Assembly: GCF_023920705.1 (NCBI RefSeq)
Contig: NZ_CP094657.1
Location: 4,107,405 to 4,171,404 of the forward strand
DNA length: 64,000 bases
Direction of reading: 5' to 3'
DNA from: Acinetobacter sp. XS-4
GTDB taxonomy: Bacteria > Pseudomonadota > Gammaproteobacteria > Pseudomonadales > Moraxellaceae
The notes below the pieces were generated by a model. The model had not been told where the DNA came from. It searched no databases and worked only from the letters and a program-made list of their open reading frames with translations. Each line of letters opens with the position of its first letter. Position 1 is the first letter of the stretch. The position numbers and the translations under genes are program-made. Shown in pieces: positions 16,923-64,000 of this stretch.

Positions 16923-17716
16923 GTAAAGATGAAAGTATTGTTTCACGTGGAACAAAACAAATCGGGCAGCATTTGCTGCCTTGGATTTTCCCAATTGTTC
17001 TTTTGGTTGTTTGGCAAATTGCCTCAAGTTCAGGTCTTTTAGAAAGTCGCATTTTACCAGCACCGACTGCCGTCGTTTCTGCTTTTTGGCACTTACTCGT
17101 TAGTGGAGAATTATGGCATCACGTTAAGGTAAGTGCTGGTCGCGCTTTGCTTGGACTTTTGGTGGGTGGTGGCTTAGGTTTACTCTTAGGTTTACTTAAT
17201 GGCTCTTCACGCTTCGCCTCTACCCTGCTCGATACAACCTTGCAAATGATTCGCAACATTCCCGCATTAGCACTTATTCCACTCGTAATCTTATGGTTCG
17301 GTATTGATGAAACAGCGAAATTATTCTTGGTCGCAGTAGGCGTTTTCTTTCCAATTTATATCAATACCTATCACGGTATTCGATCAGTTGACCCTCAATT
17401 GATTGAGATGGGCAAAAGCTACGGACTCTCACGTTGGCAGCTCTACAAAGAAATTATTCTTCCAGGTGCAATGCCTTCTATTTTAGTGGGTCTACGTTTT
17501 GCTTTAGGTTTGGTTTGGGTATTGCTCATTGTCGCTGAAACCATTTCGGCTCAAGCAGGTATTGGTTATATGACCATGAATGCACGTGAATTTTTACAAA
17601 CAGATGTCGTTCTGGTCGGTATTCTTCTTTACGCCTTACTAGGCAAACTGGCAGATGTTTTAGCACAACTTTTAGAACGCTATTTACTACGTTGGCACTC
17701 TGGATATCAGAAATAA
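16919..17716 (+). CDS. ssuC: Alkanesulfonate ABC transporter permease
   Basis: 265 residues with about six membrane helices. Inner-membrane part of the SsuABC importer. The EAA loop that contacts the ATPase is visible as [20 protein letters not shown] near residues 162-181. The start overlaps the end of ssuD (ATGA), so translation is coupled. The first codons contain a perfect parS-like 16-mer (16939-16954), which fixes residues near SIVSRGTKQ. Confidence 0.94.
16939..16954. promoter_or_regulatory. parS site (ParB/Spo0J binding), inside ssuC
   Basis: TGTTTCACGTGGAACA matches the near-universal bacterial parS consensus (TGTTNCACGTGNAACA) in full. ParB should load here and help segregate the origin region. 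It lies about 47 kb left of the origin-side edge, within the distance over which parS sites usually occur. Confidence 0.85.
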
Positions 17717-25335: not shown

Positions 25336-25858
25336 TTCACAAGCTAAAAAAGGCTTATTCCAGTTTTATCCACACAACCTCATTTGGCTTGGACTTTCTG
25401 TCCTTGCCATTGTGTTGGATCAATGGACAAAATGGATTGCAAGTACGCATCTGAACTACGCAGATCCAGTGCCTGTGCTTCCATTTTTAAACTGGACACT
25501 ATTACATAACTATGGTGCAGCCTTTAGCTTTTTATCTGATGCAGGAGGATGGCAACGCTATTTCTTCACATCTTTAGCAGGCTTAGTTTCAATCCTTTTT
25601 GTATTTTGGTTGCTTCGTATGCCTAAAAAAATGGTGGTGCTACCTGTAGCCATCGCTTTAATTTTAGGTGGAGCTTTAGGCAATTTAATTGACCGTATTA
25701 CCCTAGGTTATGTAGTCGATTTTATTCATGTTTATTACCAAAATCATCACTTTCCAGCTTTTAATATTGCGGACAGTGCTATTACCTTAGGTACCATCTT
25801 GCTACTCATCGATACATTTTTCCTTGAGAAGCAACGCAACCAAAATTCGGATGCATAA
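25328..25858 (+). CDS. lspA: Prolipoprotein signal peptidase (signal peptidase II)
   Basis: 176 residues with four membrane helices. It cleaves the signal peptides of lipidated prolipoproteins at the inner membrane. The family motifs are [27 protein letters not shown] and [11 protein letters not shown]; the two catalytic aspartates lie in the latter two. It overlaps ileS by eight bases. The product should process the several lipoproteins encoded in this window (small plc lipoprotein, ssuA, 35327, 35863). Confidence 0.96.
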
Positions 25859-41458: not shown

Positions 41459-42376
41459 ATGAAAAAAATTCTATGGTGGGGATTGAGCTTATGTTTATGC
41501 ATAGGCTTTCAAACAACGATTTTTGCTCAAAGTAATCTACCAAGGGGTTTATCTAATCAACCTTTAAAGTATCGAATTGCTTTTATTGATCCACGGTTTC
41601 AATTAACTCAAGAAAAATTTATTGAAGTTAGCCAACAAGCTGCCGAAATCTGGCACAAAGAGACTGGAAAAAGCTATTTTATTTATGATCCTGAAGCAGA
41701 GTTATCAATTAACTTAATTTATGATGATCATCAAATGATGAAAAGCGAGCAACAGGAAAATTTGAATTCACTCATGCAAAAGCAGGAACAATGGCGCATT
41801 AAAAATGAAGAAATTGTTTTAAACAAACAAGAAGTTGATCAGCTATCATCAGATTTAAGCAAAAAAAAGATCAGCCTAAAAGCTGAGTTTGAGCAATATC
41901 AACGAGACGTAACACGCTTTAATCAAGGGGAACATCGATACTATCATGCCGGTGAGTTAAAAGAGCAGCAAAATGAATTACAGCAAAAGTCTGGAAATCT
42001 GCAAAACGAATCAAATAATTTAAACCTTAAAATTCAATTACTTAATACAAAAATTAAAAAACTAAATCAAGAGCAAAGTGATTTAACAACTTTAATGACA
42101 CAATTTAAGCTAGAGCAAAAAACCAGTATTCAGCCCTTTCATAAAGGCTTATTTAGCAAAAACCAAATTCAAATTTATGGTTATGCCTCTTTAAATGATT
42201 TACGTTTGACCCTTGCTCATGAGTTTGGTCATGCTCTAGGACTAAAACATACCACGGATCCTAAATCTTTAATGTACCCCCGTTTAAAAGAGCAAGATAT
42301 CTATAATTTCAAATTAACAGATTCAGATTTAGAGCTATTAGGCTCTAGTTATAGTTCAATTGAGGGAAATCATTAA
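41459..42376 (+). CDS. Matrixin-like zinc metalloprotease with coiled-coil insertion, copy 1
   Basis: 305 residues. The signal peptide ends near TIFA (residue 23). An N-terminal protease segment (LKYRIAFIDPRFQLTQEKF, then AAEIWHKETGK) is separated from the zinc site H254-EFGHALGLKH264 by about 140 residues (85-230) of Gln/Lys/Asn/Leu-rich sequence that should form coiled coils. The third zinc ligand and Met-turn follow as LKH and LMYP. HExxHxxGLxH with a Met-turn is the metzincin signature. It is probably a periplasmic or secreted peptidase, substrate unknown. The next gene is a paralogue in the same orientation, with a separate promoter region between them. Confidence 0.85.
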   Translation: MKKILWWGLSLCLCIGFQTTIFAQSNLPRGLSNQPLKYRIAFIDPRFQLTQEKFIEVSQQAAEIWHKETGKSYFIYDPEAELSINLIYDDHQMMKSEQQENLNSLMQKQEQWRIKNEEIVLNKQEVDQLSSDLSKKKISLKAEFEQYQRDVTRFNQGEHRYYHAGELKEQQNELQQKSGNLQNESNNLNLKIQLLNTKIKKLNQEQSDLTTLMTQFKLEQKTSIQPFHKGLFSKNQIQIYGYASLNDLRLTLAHEFGHALGLKHTTDPKSLMYPRLKEQDIYNFKLTDSDLELLGSSYSSIEGNH

Positions 42377-42561
42377 AGTTAAATAATTAAAAAAACTAAA
42401 TAAAACTAAATATACTGAATTTTTTCTAAAAAATAATTTGGCATTTGGTAAAACATAATGAGACTAAAGTCTCATTTATTTCTCGGAATTGTACATTTTT
42501 TGATTGATTTTTCACTCTATATTCTTATAATACGTTTTTTTTAAAATCTCCCCCGTCAATT

Positions 42562-43467
42562 ATGCGTTTAACATCTTTGTTACTAGGCGTAGCCTTTGCT
42601 TTTTCAAATTTTCAGGCTAATGCTAATCTTGCTACTCCAGCTAATACTCAAATCCAGCAAAAAGTGGGTCAGCATCTGACTTATAAAATTGCTGAAATTG
42701 ACCCACGTTTTGGTTTAAGCCAAGACCAATTGATTCAGATTAGTCAACAAGCTGCGGATATTTGGAAACAAGGCACTGGTCAGGATTATTTTACTTATGA
42801 TCTAAATGCAAAGTTAGAAATCCGTCTAGTTTACGATAATAGCCAAAGTCGTTCTGAACAGCGTCAAAAAATTGCAGCTCAGTTTCAGCAAGAACAGCAA
42901 CGTGTAATTGATGAACAACAAAAAATTAAGCAATTGAAACAAACTCTTGGCCAAACTCAATCTGACCTTGAAAATAAAAAGCAGATTTTGAATGGCAAAT
43001 TGAAAAATCTTGACGAGCAAATGATGCAGCTTAACCAAGGCAAATTAGCACCTGAATACAGTGCTAAATCTTTGGCTAAAACTCAGAAAGATTTGCAAAA
43101 ACAAACTGTTGCTTTAAAGAAAGAAATTGCTGCATATAATGAGCAAGCTAAAGATTTAAATGTCAAAGTTACGCACTTTAATCAGATTAACAATGAGTTC
43201 AATAATTCATTGAACCAATTTAAGCAAAATGCTCAAGCTGATGTCTTTAAAAAAGGTATCTATAACGGCAAACAGATTGTGATTTATGAGTTTAAATCTA
43301 TTGATGATTTACGTTTAACAATTGCTCATGAGTTAGGACATGCACTTGGCTTAAAACACAGCGATCAACCAAATGCATTGATGTACTCAGTACGTAAAGA
43401 TGGTGACAGAAAAGTCACCGGTCTTACAGATGCTGATCGTGATCTATTAAGTGCTTTACCTCAATAA
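42562..43467 (+). CDS. Matrixin-like zinc metalloprotease with coiled-coil insertion, copy 2
   Basis: 301 residues. The signal peptide ends near QANA (residue 21). The layout equals that of the preceding gene: LTYKIAEIDPRFGLSQDQL, AADIWKQGTGQDYF, a coiled-coil insertion (about 90-225), then H256-ELGHALGLKH266 and Met-turn ALMYS. The two proteins are clearly homologous over their full length, so this is a tandem duplication, now well diverged. The insertion splits the catalytic domain between its N-terminal strands and the active-site helix, which is unusual for matrixins. The role is unknown. Confidence 0.85.
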   Translation: MRLTSLLLGVAFAFSNFQANANLATPANTQIQQKVGQHLTYKIAEIDPRFGLSQDQLIQISQQAADIWKQGTGQDYFTYDLNAKLEIRLVYDNSQSRSEQRQKIAAQFQQEQQRVIDEQQKIKQLKQTLGQTQSDLENKKQILNGKLKNLDEQMMQLNQGKLAPEYSAKSLAKTQKDLQKQTVALKKEIAAYNEQAKDLNVKVTHFNQINNEFNNSLNQFKQNAQADVFKKGIYNGKQIVIYEFKSIDDLRLTIAHELGHALGLKHSDQPNALMYSVRKDGDRKVTGLTDADRDLLSALPQ

Positions 43468-44007: not shown

Positions 44008-45300
44008 TTATTGCATCATTTTTTGGGCCTGTTCTTGACGGAATGCGCGTAAGATTTGTTGCCCTGCACGCCCTGTTGGATTTAAACCTAAACGAGTTTG
44101 CTCCTGACGAATAGCCACACGGGTTTTATCCCCAATAAGACCATCAACCGCACCAATATCGTAACCGCGATTAAGCAAAAACTGTTGGATTTCACGACGT
44201 TCCGCGCGTGAAGTTCCTGGATCATCAGTTGGCCAAGATGTTGCAAAAGGACGAGCGCCTTTTAAACGATCAGATAAATGAGCAATTGCAAGACCATAAC
44301 TTTCCGCAGCGTTATAACTGTAGATAGCGTCAAAATTCTTAAATACTAAGAATACTGGACCATTTACACCTGCCGGTGCCATTAAACCTGCCGAAGTACT
44401 GCCAGATAAAGCTCCTTGGACAAGTGGAGAGCCGTCAATTCGAGTTACCCCTCGTGCACTCCAGCTACTTAATGCTTTCTTTGAGCGTCGCCCTTCTCCA
44501 TCAATTGACATGCCTTGAGGAACTTTTACTTCAAAACCCCATGGCATTCCTGTTTGCCAACCGGCTTTATTTAAGAAATTAGCCGTTGATGCCAATGCAT
44601 CTGCGGTACTCGATACTAAATCGCGACGACCATCTCCATCAAAATCAACAGCTAAACGTTCATAGGTCGATGGCATAAATTGCGTATGTCCAAATGCCCC
44701 AGCCCAAGAACCTTTCAATTGATCTTCGGTTAAGTCACCGCGCTGTAAAATACGCATGGTGGCAAAAAATTCAGTACGGAAATAACTTTGTCGACGACCT
44801 TCACAACTTAAAGTCCCGAGTGCTTGTAATAAAGGATATTTTCCAGAAATATCACCAAAATTACTTTCTACACCCCACACTGCCACAATTGTTTCAGGTG
44901 GCACGCCGTAGGTTTGAGAAGCACGATTTAAAACATCGCGATATTGCGCCAGTTTTTGTTTTCCGAGCTCAACACGCTCTTCATCGACTAAGCCAGAAAG
45001 ATAATCCCAAATTGGTGTCGAAAATTCTGGTTGATAATTTAATTTATCAATCACTGAATAATCTGGAGTTAAGTTTTGAGTATAACGGTCATAAGTTGTT
45101 CCCGAGACTCCCGCAGCAATTGCTTGAGAACGTAAGTTTGCCAAACAACTTTGGAAATTATTATTAGGCGTATAATCTTCGCTAGTTACTACTGGAACAG
45201 TAGCATTGCTAGATATTGTAGAACCATTAATTACGAGCTCTGCTTGAGCCTGAGTCATTGCTAAAAATACAGAGCCAACAATACAAGAAAAACGTCGCAT
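44008..45300 (-). CDS. Lytic murein transglycosylase (MltB family) with peptidoglycan-binding domain
   Basis: 430 residues. A signal peptide ends at TQAQA (residue 20) with no lipobox, so it is soluble in the periplasm. The SLT/MltB catalytic domain covers about 45-345, with the catalytic glutamate E145 in VWGVESNFGD and the substrate-cleft motifs GAFGHTQFMPSTYE and VDFDGDGRRDL. The C-terminal 60 residues form a PG_binding_1 domain (IQQFLLNRGYDIGAVDGLIG). It cleaves glycan strands to 1,6-anhydro-muropeptides. The gene faces a repeat-rich intergenic region upstream. Confidence 0.94.
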   Translation of the reverse strand: MRRFSCIVGSVFLAMTQAQAELVINGSTISSNATVPVVTSEDYTPNNNFQSCLANLRSQAIAAGVSGTTYDRYTQNLTPDYSVIDKLNYQPEFSTPIWDYLSGLVDEERVELGKQKLAQYRDVLNRASQTYGVPPETIVAVWGVESNFGDISGKYPLLQALGTLSCEGRRQSYFRTEFFATMRILQRGDLTEDQLKGSWAGAFGHTQFMPSTYERLAVDFDGDGRRDLVSSTADALASTANFLNKAGWQTGMPWGFEVKVPQGMSIDGEGRRSKKALSSWSARGVTRIDGSPLVQGALSGSTSAGLMAPAGVNGPVFLVFKNFDAIYSYNAAESYGLAIAHLSDRLKGARPFATSWPTDDPGTSRAERREIQQFLLNRGYDIGAVDGLIGDKTRVAIRQEQTRLGLNPTGRAGQQILRAFRQEQAQKMMQ

Positions 45301-45559
45301 ATTATCCCAGTTTCAATTTTTGAATTTAAATTTTTAAGTACCATACCATTATGAGTCTAAAATTTCAGAGAGAAAACGTAAATTTGAATTCATAATCTCT
45401 TCTTTAAATTCATTTCCAGTGTTTTAAATTCAAATTTCCCACTTTATTTTGAATTTAAAACTTCCCCCATGCACATCACTAGTTTTGAATTCAAAATAAT
45501 AGCTTATAGTTTAAATTCAAAAGTCTTACTTTAAATTTAAACTATAACGCAGGCGTTTC

Positions 45560-45579
45560 TGTGGATAAACTTATCCACA
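45560..45579. promoter_or_regulatory. Inverted pair of perfect DnaA boxes
   Basis: TGTGGATAA (45560-45568) and TTATCCACA (45571-45579) are separated by two bases, forming a 20-bp palindrome. Both match the high-affinity DnaA box exactly. Confidence 0.85.
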
Positions 45580-45807
45580 ATCAGGCAAAAACAACACTAT
45601 TCATTGATTACATTCTATATTTCATCAGCCTTTATGACACAAGAAGTCCAACTAATCGAATAATCTATATTTTTAAATTCAAAAATCACGCCATGTTTTA
45701 AATTTAAACTTGCCACATTATTTTAAATTTAAAACACTTCAGCAAGCACCATCGGTTTTGAATTCAAAAGCCATAAGCTCTTTCACCAGCTATAAACAAA
45801 ACTCCCT

Positions 45808-45816
45808 TGTGGATAA
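45808..45816 (-). promoter_or_regulatory. Perfect DnaA box
   Basis: TGTGGATAA, exact complement of TTATCCACA, five bases before a TTTAAATTCAAA element. Confidence 0.75.
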
Positions 45817-45902
45817 CTAACTTTAAATTCAAAATAATCAGGTTCCACTTTTTAAATTTAAAAACACCATCAATATTTAAATTCAAAAATTTCTATAAAA
45901 AG

Positions 45903-45911
45903 TTATCCACA
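45903..45911 (+). promoter_or_regulatory. Perfect DnaA box
   Basis: TTATCCACA followed by an A-run, 27 bases before the last TTTAAATTTAAA element. Confidence 0.75.
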
Positions 45912-45953
45912 AAAAAAATTACCCATGATTTATTATTTTTTAAATTTAAAAGA

Positions 45954-45984
45954 TAAAAAAAGCGATCCGAAGATCGCTTTTTAG
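45954..45984 (-). terminator. Terminator of purEK
   Basis: AGCGATC, loop CGAA, GATCGCT between A-run and T-run, 16 bases after the purK stop. Confidence 0.9.
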
Positions 45985-45999
45985 AGAATTAGAAATATT

Positions 46000-47121
46000 T
46001 TAGAGGGTCATATCTGCTGTTAAAGCGAGTGGTTCTGGCAAAATTTCTGCCAATTGACGGCATAACGTCGTCAATTCATTACTATCCACAGGCATTAAAG
46101 TGATATGGCCTAACTTACGGCCAGCACGTTCAGACTTATTATAAAGATGTAGATGAGCACCATTTAAGGCAAGTACATCTTCAGTTTTAGGATGCTGACC
46201 AATAATATTGATCATAACCGTTGGGCGAACAACATCTGTTGAACCCAATGGTAGACCTGCAACAGCTCGAATATGGTTTTCAAACTGAGAACAAACAGCG
46301 CCTTCAATGGACCAGTGACCTGAGTTATGCACTCGCGGTGCCATCTCATTTGCACATAAGCCTTGTTCTGTCACAAATAGCTCTAGAGTTAACACACCAA
46401 CATAGTTGAGGTGATTCAACAAACGAGTAATGTAGTCTTGAGCCACAGGTTGCAAAGCTTCGCTATTCGGTGCTGGAACAATTGAATGCGATAAAATGCC
46501 ATTATGATGGTGATTTTCAGCCAGTGGCCAAGTTTTTACTTCACCATTTTGGCCGCGCACCGCAATAATTGAAACTTCACGAGAGAATTTAACAAAGCTT
46601 TCGGCAACTAAACTTTTTGCAGGACCAAGTTCAGCCCACGCCGTATCAATCTGGTCTTCTGAACGAAGTACAAACTGACCTTTACCGTCATATCCACCAG
46701 TTGCAGTCTTAAGCACAATCGGTAAACCAAGCTCAGCAACAGCCTTTTTCAAGCCTTCTAGACTATCTACAGCACGATACGGCGCTACAGGAATAGTAAG
46801 CTCATCAAACAATGCTTTTTCTGACAAACGATTTTGCGCAGTTGCTAAAGCAATACGGGGAGGGTGCAATGCTTTGGTTTGTGTTAAAACATCCACATCT
46901 TCAACGGGCGTATTTTCAAACTCAAGACTAAAAACATCAGCACTTTCAATAAACTGCTTTAAGCCTTGCTCATCTTGGCTAGAAAAGACTTGACCTAGAA
47001 CACCTGCAGGACAATCTGTATTTGCTTCAAAAAAAGTACATTGAATATTTAATGGTAACGCTGCTTGAGCCATCATTCGGCCCAGTTGCCCACCACCAAA
47101 AATACCGATAGTTTTATCCAT
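46000..47121 (-). CDS. purK: N5-carboxyaminoimidazole ribonucleotide synthase PurK
   Basis: 373 residues. It converts aminoimidazole ribonucleotide, bicarbonate and ATP to N5-CAIR in purine synthesis. The start has the dinucleotide-like loop GIFGGGQLGRMMAQAA, and the ATP-grasp core includes LKTATGGYDGKGQFVL and FVKFSREVSIIAVRG, with NEMAPRVHNSGHWSIEGA near residue 260. The gene follows purE after nine bases on the same strand, so the two are one operon. Confidence 0.96.
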   Translation of the reverse strand: MDKTIGIFGGGQLGRMMAQAALPLNIQCTFFEANTDCPAGVLGQVFSSQDEQGLKQFIESADVFSLEFENTPVEDVDVLTQTKALHPPRIALATAQNRLSEKALFDELTIPVAPYRAVDSLEGLKKAVAELGLPIVLKTATGGYDGKGQFVLRSEDQIDTAWAELGPAKSLVAESFVKFSREVSIIAVRGQNGEVKTWPLAENHHHNGILSHSIVPAPNSEALQPVAQDYITRLLNHLNYVGVLTLELFVTEQGLCANEMAPRVHNSGHWSIEGAVCSQFENHIRAVAGLPLGSTDVVRPTVMINIIGQHPKTEDVLALNGAHLHLYNKSERAGRKLGHITLMPVDSNELTTLCRQLAEILPEPLALTADMTL

Positions 47122-63474: not shown

Positions 63475-64000
63475 TGTTTACTCTGTCAATGAAAAACAAA
63501 GAAAGTTTTGTATTTAACTCAAATTTTTAATCTCTCTACTTCTTTTTATGATTGTCATAATTCAGTGCAATCTATAGTTTTTAAAGTTATACACAAACTA
63601 ATTGTCTATTTTAATTAGAACTTTTATTATATACACACCTTATATACATATTTATCAACAAAACAAGATATCATCTTGGCTTTGATTTGCTGCATTTGAA
63701 TTTAAATTCATATTTTGTAGTTATCCACAAAAGATCACACCCCTATTAAATAAATTCAAATTTTAAAATTTATATTTATTCTTATTAGGAGCGATTTTTT
63801 CTGTGGATTTCGCACTTTTAAATTTAAAAAACATATATTTGGGTTGTTGATAACTCTGTTTCTATTATATTTATGGATTGTGGATAAGTTTATGTGATAA
63901 TTTATCCACAGGTTGTGCAAAAAGTTATTCACAAGTGGTTTTGAATTTAAATTTATTCACAAGAGATTTCTTTTTAGACAAAATCAGTCGAATTCGTCAT
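63475..64000. other. Origin of replication region (oriC), left part, upstream of rpmH
   Basis: AT-rich, gene-free sequence to the right edge. Perfect DnaA boxes: TTATCCACA at 63721-63729 and 63902-63910, TGTGGATAA at 63879-63887. Near-consensus boxes: TTATACACA 63587-63595, TTATCAACA 63652-63660, TGTTGATAA 63845-63853, TTATTCACA 63925-63933 and 63953-63961. The 12-mer TTTRAATTYAAA occurs exactly at 63695, 63817 and 63940. Its position next to rpmH is the classical oriC-dnaA site. The dnaA gene itself should begin beyond the window. Confidence 0.85.

Follow-up and report, generated by a model that had tools for sequence, protein, structure and literature searches.

What function is served by a gene-free stretch of 632 bases that repeats one 12-mer over and over, mixes it with DnaA boxes, and lies a short way from the replication origin? 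The window in which it occurs, a stretch of 64,000 nucleotides analysed at its full length, is the last 64 kb of a single contig of 4,171,404 bp with dnaA at its start. Because the window ends this contig, the array is about 18 kb from oriC (rpmH-dnaA), the distance given in the first-pass annotation. That annotation was correct in what it observed, and even understated it. Its one miscount concerned degenerate copies: the 14 exact copies of TTTRAATTYAAA stand, while only one of the two degenerate copies is a one-mismatch site (45383), the other having at least two mismatches. The stretch 45319-45950 is indeed gene-free, between an mltB-like gene (44008-45300) and purK (46000-47121), and it holds the four perfect DnaA boxes (TTATCCACA) that had been described, two of them as a tight inverted pair. 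The features are as follows.

44008..45300, minus strand: mltB-like gene for a lytic murein transglycosylase (MltB_2 subfamily), pointing away from the array
45319, 45423, 45448, 45484, 45510, 45530, 45672: starts of exact TTTRAATTYAAA copies
45697, 45722, 45757, 45822, 45851, 45876, 45939: starts of the remaining exact copies
45542..45671: longest stretch free of 12-mers within the array, 130 bp, containing the inverted DnaA-box pair
45560..45579: inverted pair of exact DnaA boxes, at 45560 (minus) and 45571 (plus), 2 bp apart, TGTGGATAA-AC-TTATCCACA
45808..45816, minus strand: exact DnaA box
45903..45911, plus strand: exact DnaA box
45957..45982, minus strand: terminator-like hairpin 3' of purK
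46000..47121, minus strand: purK, pointing towards the array (TIGR01161 above cut-off)
63587..64000: oriC side of rpmH-dnaA, with exact 12-mers at 63695, 63817 and 63940
63721 (plus), 63879 (minus), 63902 (plus): exact DnaA boxes on the oriC side, with near boxes as well
Genome position 68: fourth exact 12-mer of oriC, preceding the dnaA start codon at 101

Both flanking genes are on the minus strand. The product of the mltB-like gene matched TIGR02283 above the cut-off and TIGR02282 (MltB) below it, and the first 12-mer starts 19 bp ahead of its start codon. At the other end the array adjoins the terminator-like hairpin of purK, just past the hairpin, where one such structure was found against a mean of 0.4 in shuffles. 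Imperfect direct repeats of 30-42 nt occur within the array. A non-coding RNA was considered and rejected, as no Rfam match reached the gathering threshold in 44900-46200, and a promoter scan predicted four promoters against 4.2 in shuffles. By consensus, neither an IHF site nor a parS site is present in 45319-45950; parS-like sites, two exact and one with one mismatch, occur at 16939, 34013 and 57992, so that the array is situated between them. Nearby, at 41459-43467, are two neighbouring M10-like metallopeptidase genes, apparently a tandem pair.

Next, we asked whether such a density of sites could be expected by chance. The window contains 22 TTTRAATTYAAA sites with at most one mismatch, against a mean of 5.0 and a maximum of 11 in 100 shuffles. 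DnaA boxes with at most one mismatch showed no excess over the whole window (26 against 19.3 expected); the excess is in exact boxes and their clustering, and the sole exact box in the window beyond the array and oriC is at 25366. Genome-wide, the exact 12-mers number 33: 14 in the array, 4 at oriC, 4 at 222 kb and 11 scattered. Thus 22 of the 33 fall in three clusters, of which two have DnaA boxes and lie at oriC, no more than 18 kb apart. The first-pass annotation had raised the prospect of a 12-mer common throughout the genome, and the count speaks otherwise, the 11 scattered copies being no more than the 13 copies of a reversed control pattern. Chance AT-richness was ruled out by the shuffles, by the genome count and by the reversed-pattern control across genomes described below.

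The observation that the same 12-mer accompanies the DnaA boxes beside rpmH was borne out by the three exact 12-mers and three exact boxes in 63587..64000, and it extends to the genus. In 59 of 60 Acinetobacter genomes the oriC stretch held 1-7 exact 12-mers, the remaining one being a 239-bp fragment cut by a contig end; in 36 of the 60 an exact 12-mer was close to dnaA, and all 60 had 2-7 exact DnaA boxes per oriC stretch.

The cluster at 222 kb consists of four exact sites within a gene for a SAM-dependent methyltransferase (L001:4988-5281; genome 222487-222780). Its spacings are identical in three relatives (L017, L018, L037), and no exact DnaA box was found in the 11-kb locus around it. 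Small arrays without exact DnaA boxes were also seen at what are apparently two other loci (L264 and L314; L266, L274, L289 and L308).

The identity of the 12-mer is already on record. PMC10483419 assigns TTTRAATTYAAA to an orphan methyltransferase, AamA, as its methylation motif, determined by SMRT sequencing in A. baumannii ATCC 17978. The suggestion that the array is bound by an unknown AT-palindrome-binding protein misses this, although the site spacing makes an additional protein reading the 12-mers possible. In the wild type, 59 of 66 motif counts were methylated in a first run and 41 of 66 in a second, against 0 in the aamA mutant (PMC10483419). Methylation was densest in a "region 1", with 29 and 28 sites in the two runs; "region 2" is rnpA/dnaA, with 9 and 9 methylated sites, and "region 12", at the SAM-dependent methyltransferase gene smtA, fits the methyltransferase-gene cluster at 222 kb here. 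Those authors interpreted AamA sites as expression control. Their mutant had dnaA and rnpA increased 1.5-2.4-fold, a 1.6-fold change in mltA expression that complementation restored, slower growth, and filaments in one medium; growth was not rescued by complementation, and filaments occurred in the complemented strain too (PMC10483419). Other papers report partial methylation of two related motifs in every strain tested, with Dam absent from the genus (PMC10287943), and overexpression of AamA (PMC9769888).

We infer that region 1 is the array between the mltB-like gene and purK, since motif II of that study, TATGAATTCAAA, with one copy in the ATCC 17978 chromosome, is the reverse complement of the site at 45383, since 14-15 sites on two strands make about 29, and since mltA was among the tested targets. 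Against an exact match, TTTGAATTCAAA, which occurs twice in the array, is missing from the motifs listed in PMC10483419. The term oriC does not appear in that paper, dnaA appears only as a gene and SeqA only in general discussion, and the sections covered do not describe the DnaA boxes, the genus-wide conservation or a link of the locus to oriC. Within the openly licensed literature, the matches listed for Acinetobacter with DnaA box, oriC, SeqA, datA or DARS included no report of the locus, and of the papers matching the exact 12-mers only PMC10483419 concerns the motif, by title. For A. calcoaceticus, only oriC boxes are mentioned in the available part of PMC4451416. New here are the genus-wide conservation of the locus and its DnaA-box density, the 12-mer itself having been published as the AamA target.

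Our genome has a single match to PF02086, a protein of 430 aa (G000 3921171-3922460, minus strand). By family, size class, rib gene neighbours and the published motif, rather than by direct comparison with A1S_0222, this protein is probably AamA; the neighbours, named by eye, are what we take to be rib genes. All but one of the 60 Acinetobacter genomes have AamA, at 77-100% identity, the exception being a genome that is 65% complete; DnaA was found in all 60, at 59-100%. This distribution does not fit the horizontal transfer and absence from some species suggested in PMC10483419. Among the 149 family genomes searched, matches outside Acinetobacter reached 84% in four genomes of group g10, 48-57% in five genomes of g5 and g13, and 34-35% in two of g3.

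To determine whether the locus is conserved between the transglycosylase gene and purK, as the first-pass annotation had proposed to check, we located purK in all 60 Acinetobacter genomes and compared the DNA behind it in our own genome and the 59 others. At least three exact sites were present at the locus in 54 of the 60, and 51 of these 54 had 6-15. Of the 60 genomes, 55 showed the pair pattern, two 12-mers within 30 bp of each other, and none showed the reversed control pair. Five genomes had fewer than three sites at the locus (G014, G020, G030 and G031 with 0; G026 with 2, and one box), and in G032 the locus is cut by a contig end. In two genomes (G027, G057; L053, L054) about 1.2 kb of other DNA interrupts the array. 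An A. baylyi type-strain record also has the array, with 10 exact sites and 2 exact boxes (L288). Gene order is the usual one in 47 genomes, and there purK and dnaA are 14.0-33.0 kb apart, with a median of 19.9 kb; this leaves out G014 and G026, where the genes share one contig in another arrangement, and 11 genomes with the genes on different contigs. The smallest distance, 14.0 kb, is that of G020, a genome without the array. Outside the motifs, array spacers from different groups align at only 0.44-0.63 identity in the rows shown, which means that the number of sites is kept while the spacers drift.

The DnaA boxes are kept as well. In the 54 arrays with at least three exact sites, taken from the 59 of 60 intergenic regions of 250 bp or more, we counted 106 exact boxes, against a mean of 0.33 and a maximum of 4 in dinucleotide shuffles, and 52 of the arrays had at least one box. 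The two split arrays were trimmed to their last 750 bp for this count; untrimmed, the total is 108. When a single array was taken from each of 29 sequence groups (arrays sharing few 14-mers), 53 exact boxes were found, against 0.2 and at most 2. Forty-one of the 54 arrays carry one or two exact boxes, 11 carry three or four, including our own, and two carry none. A control in real DNA gave the same answer: among the 89 stretches at purK and/or mltB in a wider survey (described below; Alkanindiges left out), 166 boxes fell in 49.6 kb of array (3.35/kb) and 23 in 659 kb of flanks (0.035/kb), a density about 96-fold higher. Exact boxes kept so far above chance lend comparative support to the idea, raised in the first-pass annotation, of a DnaA-linked control locus of a datA-like or DARS-like kind, as far as sequence comparison can tell.

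A second satellite, defined by at least one exact 12-mer and at least one exact DnaA box, was found about 7 kb from dnaA, beyond a gene that its place in the gene order marks as gyrB-like. It occurs in 10 of the 38 Acinetobacter genomes covered there (G009, G012, G013, G014, G029, G037, G041, G044, G051, G059). The satellites lie at

L319:7678-7824
L243:1065-1209
L212:296-448

and further ones in L332, L336, L340, L357, L367 and L368. Five more genomes have boxes only at this position (G001, G005, G046, G048, G055), and the gyrB-side satellite is absent from our own genome, from five close relatives and from both of the g10 genomes covered. Two genomes without the mltB-purK array, G014 and G031, each have four extra sites upstream of dnaA, and G014 also carries five exact sites with four boxes past gyrB. 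G020, which is 99% complete and has AamA, has neither satellite in the stretches examined.

Outside Acinetobacter, the pair pattern was present in 4 of 42 family genomes, exactly the four g10 genomes with the 84% AamA; each has two exact DnaA boxes behind purK, and g10 is probably Alkanindiges. This co-occurrence of the array with close AamA is confounded by kinship. Across the order, the pair pattern was found in 3 of 3 Acinetobacter and, as a single pair, in 1 of 387 others, with the reversed control in 2 of 390 (G086, G507). At oriC the 12-mers, exact or with one mismatch, reach further: they occur in all five genomes with 48-57% AamA and in none of five genomes without an AamA match, one of these oriC regions being covered only partly. 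Since the 12-mers at oriC also accompany these AamA matches, oriC may be the older site of its action, a suggestion drawn from a small sample.

The wider survey, of a named genome collection, returned at least 118 stretches, and its counts are lower bounds; titles are listed for 80 of the 118. Six of the 80 titled stretches are not from Acinetobacter, namely Alkanindiges illinoisensis, at purK, and five single records (a Campylobacter, a Sphaerospermopsis, a Methanobacteriaceae, a Pseudomonadales and a Bacteroidales record). A Campylobacter troglodytis stretch (L219:5665-7150) has many exact or near 12-mers, often at multiples of 6 bp, and is probably another kind of repeat. A three-site pattern starting TTTA was found in one stretch of IMG/VR. 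The only stretch from that source found to have three close 12-mers (L328:8911-9050) holds four exact sites and no exact DnaA box.

How might the array work? We propose that it is an origin-proximal, DnaA-binding satellite of oriC, written by AamA, and most likely a sink for DnaA that follows methylation; we give this reading about an even chance of being right. A DnaA-box cluster near oriC doubles soon after initiation and would therefore suit a sink, which would titrate DnaA and/or hydrolyse its ATP, working like datA. The fork would duplicate the array soon after initiation, leaving both copies hemimethylated at nearly the same time as the AamA sites of oriC and those before dnaA. The hemimethylated array would alter the loading of DnaA, or of a second protein occupying the 12-mers, until AamA restored full methylation. 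Binding of DnaA, its capture rather than reactivation, and gating by methylation would all be parts of this process. The reader protein is hypothetical, because SeqA, considered for this part, was not found in any of eight genomes: a search with PF03925 matched none of seven Acinetobacter genomes and one g10 genome, and it matched the E. coli control. The published effects of the aamA mutation agree with disturbed initiation and are not specific to it. Several findings count against the sink: 41 of the 54 arrays have only one or two exact boxes and two have none; the IHF consensus, needed by datA, is missing here and in most arrays; and G020 has no satellite, G026 just 2 sites and 1 box, and G030 nothing at the locus.

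Alternatively, the array could chiefly be a platform for a multimeric reader of AamA sites that organises or holds the origin region, with the DnaA boxes secondary; we consider this unlikely. It would act as SeqA does in reading hemimethylated GATC, or as MatP does in organising a domain. In 29 representative arrays the adjacent spacings form a comb near 14, 20, 25, 30, 37, 43 and 53 bp, with a best period of about 5.6; its power is 30.1, and none of 1000 jittered sets exceeds 13.6. After spacers at least 65% alike were collapsed, comb power was 39.5 against 13.1, and the comb held at thresholds of 65-80%; with spacers 50% alike collapsed it was nearly gone (5.9 against a 95% null of 5.8). At 10.5 bp, one full turn, power is low; where aligned arrays differ in spacing, the differences show no clear steps; and inheritance and duplication within arrays can mimic a comb. 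The comb hints at a multimeric reader and is suggestive only. The retention of site number amid diverging spacers (0.44-0.63 in the rows shown) and the position between parS-like sites would suit such a platform as well, but it leaves the keeping of the DnaA boxes unexplained.

Two further alternatives have a small chance each. Following the way PMC10483419 reads AamA sites, the array might be a methylation-controlled regulatory region for the mltB-like gene, which we rate as quite improbable. The restored 1.6-fold change of mltA makes a role at the neighbouring gene possible, and a first 12-mer 19 bp before the start codon is well placed for one. However, the effect is small, a promoter needs less than 15 sites and conserved DnaA boxes spread over 632 bp, and the same combination is found at oriC and, in some species, past gyrB beside other genes. 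The array might instead reactivate DnaA in the manner of DARS rather than sequester or inactivate it, for which the outlook is equally slim. The close inverted boxes here and a gene-free DnaA-box cluster kept by position point that way, but DARS cores have three DnaA boxes, according to the available parts of PMC5742627 and PMC4585315, and the exact ones number fewer than three in 43 of 54 arrays, weak boxes being unscored.

A displaced or second origin, also raised in the first-pass annotation, has next to no chance: DnaA boxes do lie here within AT-rich DNA, but cumulative GC skew shows no turn at the array and keeps falling, with some wobble, to the end of the window, the flanking genes point in the same direction, and a conserved oriC with several DnaA boxes sits beside dnaA 18 kb away. 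A neutral AT-rich or mobile repeat is scarcely credible and strongly disfavoured by conservation, since the imperfect internal repeats of 30-42 nt that would favour it are set against a true pair in 55 of 60 genomes and a reversed pair in none, an unchanged location in 54 of the 60, and DnaA boxes that are kept.

A broader proposal is tentative and, in our judgement, somewhat doubtful. Acinetobacter and its sister genus may have evolved, independently of Dam/SeqA, a methylation system dedicated to the origin, in which AamA, with about 30 exact targets in this genome, would mark oriC, the promoter region of dnaA, and DnaA-box satellites flanking oriC on one side or both. In such a system a reader specific for hemimethylated DNA would let replication clock the capture of DnaA. 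Little is settled about how bacteria lacking SeqA and Dam avoid re-initiation, and Acinetobacter now offers a concrete candidate in a conserved methyltransferase with few sites, placed at oriC and at adjoining DnaA-box satellites. AamA, so far studied as a global regulator of expression, is thereby recast as possibly a replication enzyme, and the question is testable in the laboratory species A. baylyi.

Finally, we compared the array with known systems; for datA, DARS and SeqA we used the available parts of PMC5742627, PMC4585315, PMC4451416 and PMC2865523. The traits of a replication origin, a GC-skew turn and the corresponding gene orientation, are absent at the array. Like DARS1 and DARS2 of E. 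coli and the eight intergenic regions with DnaA clusters in Bacillus, it would be linked to initiation (PMC5742627, PMC4451416, in the parts available). Where a DARS core has three DnaA boxes, only 11 of the 54 arrays reach three or more exact ones, with weak boxes and core spacing unscored. We know of no methylation array at DARS or at the Bacillus clusters.

The AamA system resembles Dam/SeqA of E. coli and Vibrio in that an orphan adenine methyltransferase has its sites gathered at oriC and ahead of dnaA. It differs in its motif, the 12-base TTTRAATTYAAA with 33 exact sites in this genome against a GATC that occurs thousands of times per genome, and in having satellites with DnaA boxes away from oriC. 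The orphan status of AamA comes from PMC10483419, where regions with the same 12-mer are read as gene-expression switches.

Like datA of E. coli, the array brings DnaA boxes together in non-coding DNA, and its distance from oriC is conserved (PMC4585315, in part), and DnaA boxes dense near the origin have been argued to titrate DnaA in E. coli (PMC12371093, in part). The distances differ, about 18 kb here against more than 450 kb for datA (PMC4451416, in part). Unlike datA, the array is densely set with methylation sites and in most cases lacks the IHF consensus: a consensus search gave 11 matches over 29 arrays, where mononucleotide shuffles gave 6.4 (largest 13), and 6 in the largest gaps against 0.8 (largest 4), these coming from only 5 of 27 representative arrays. 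In conclusion, the array is a real, conserved element that falls outside the SeqA system and most likely works like datA with an added layer of methylation.
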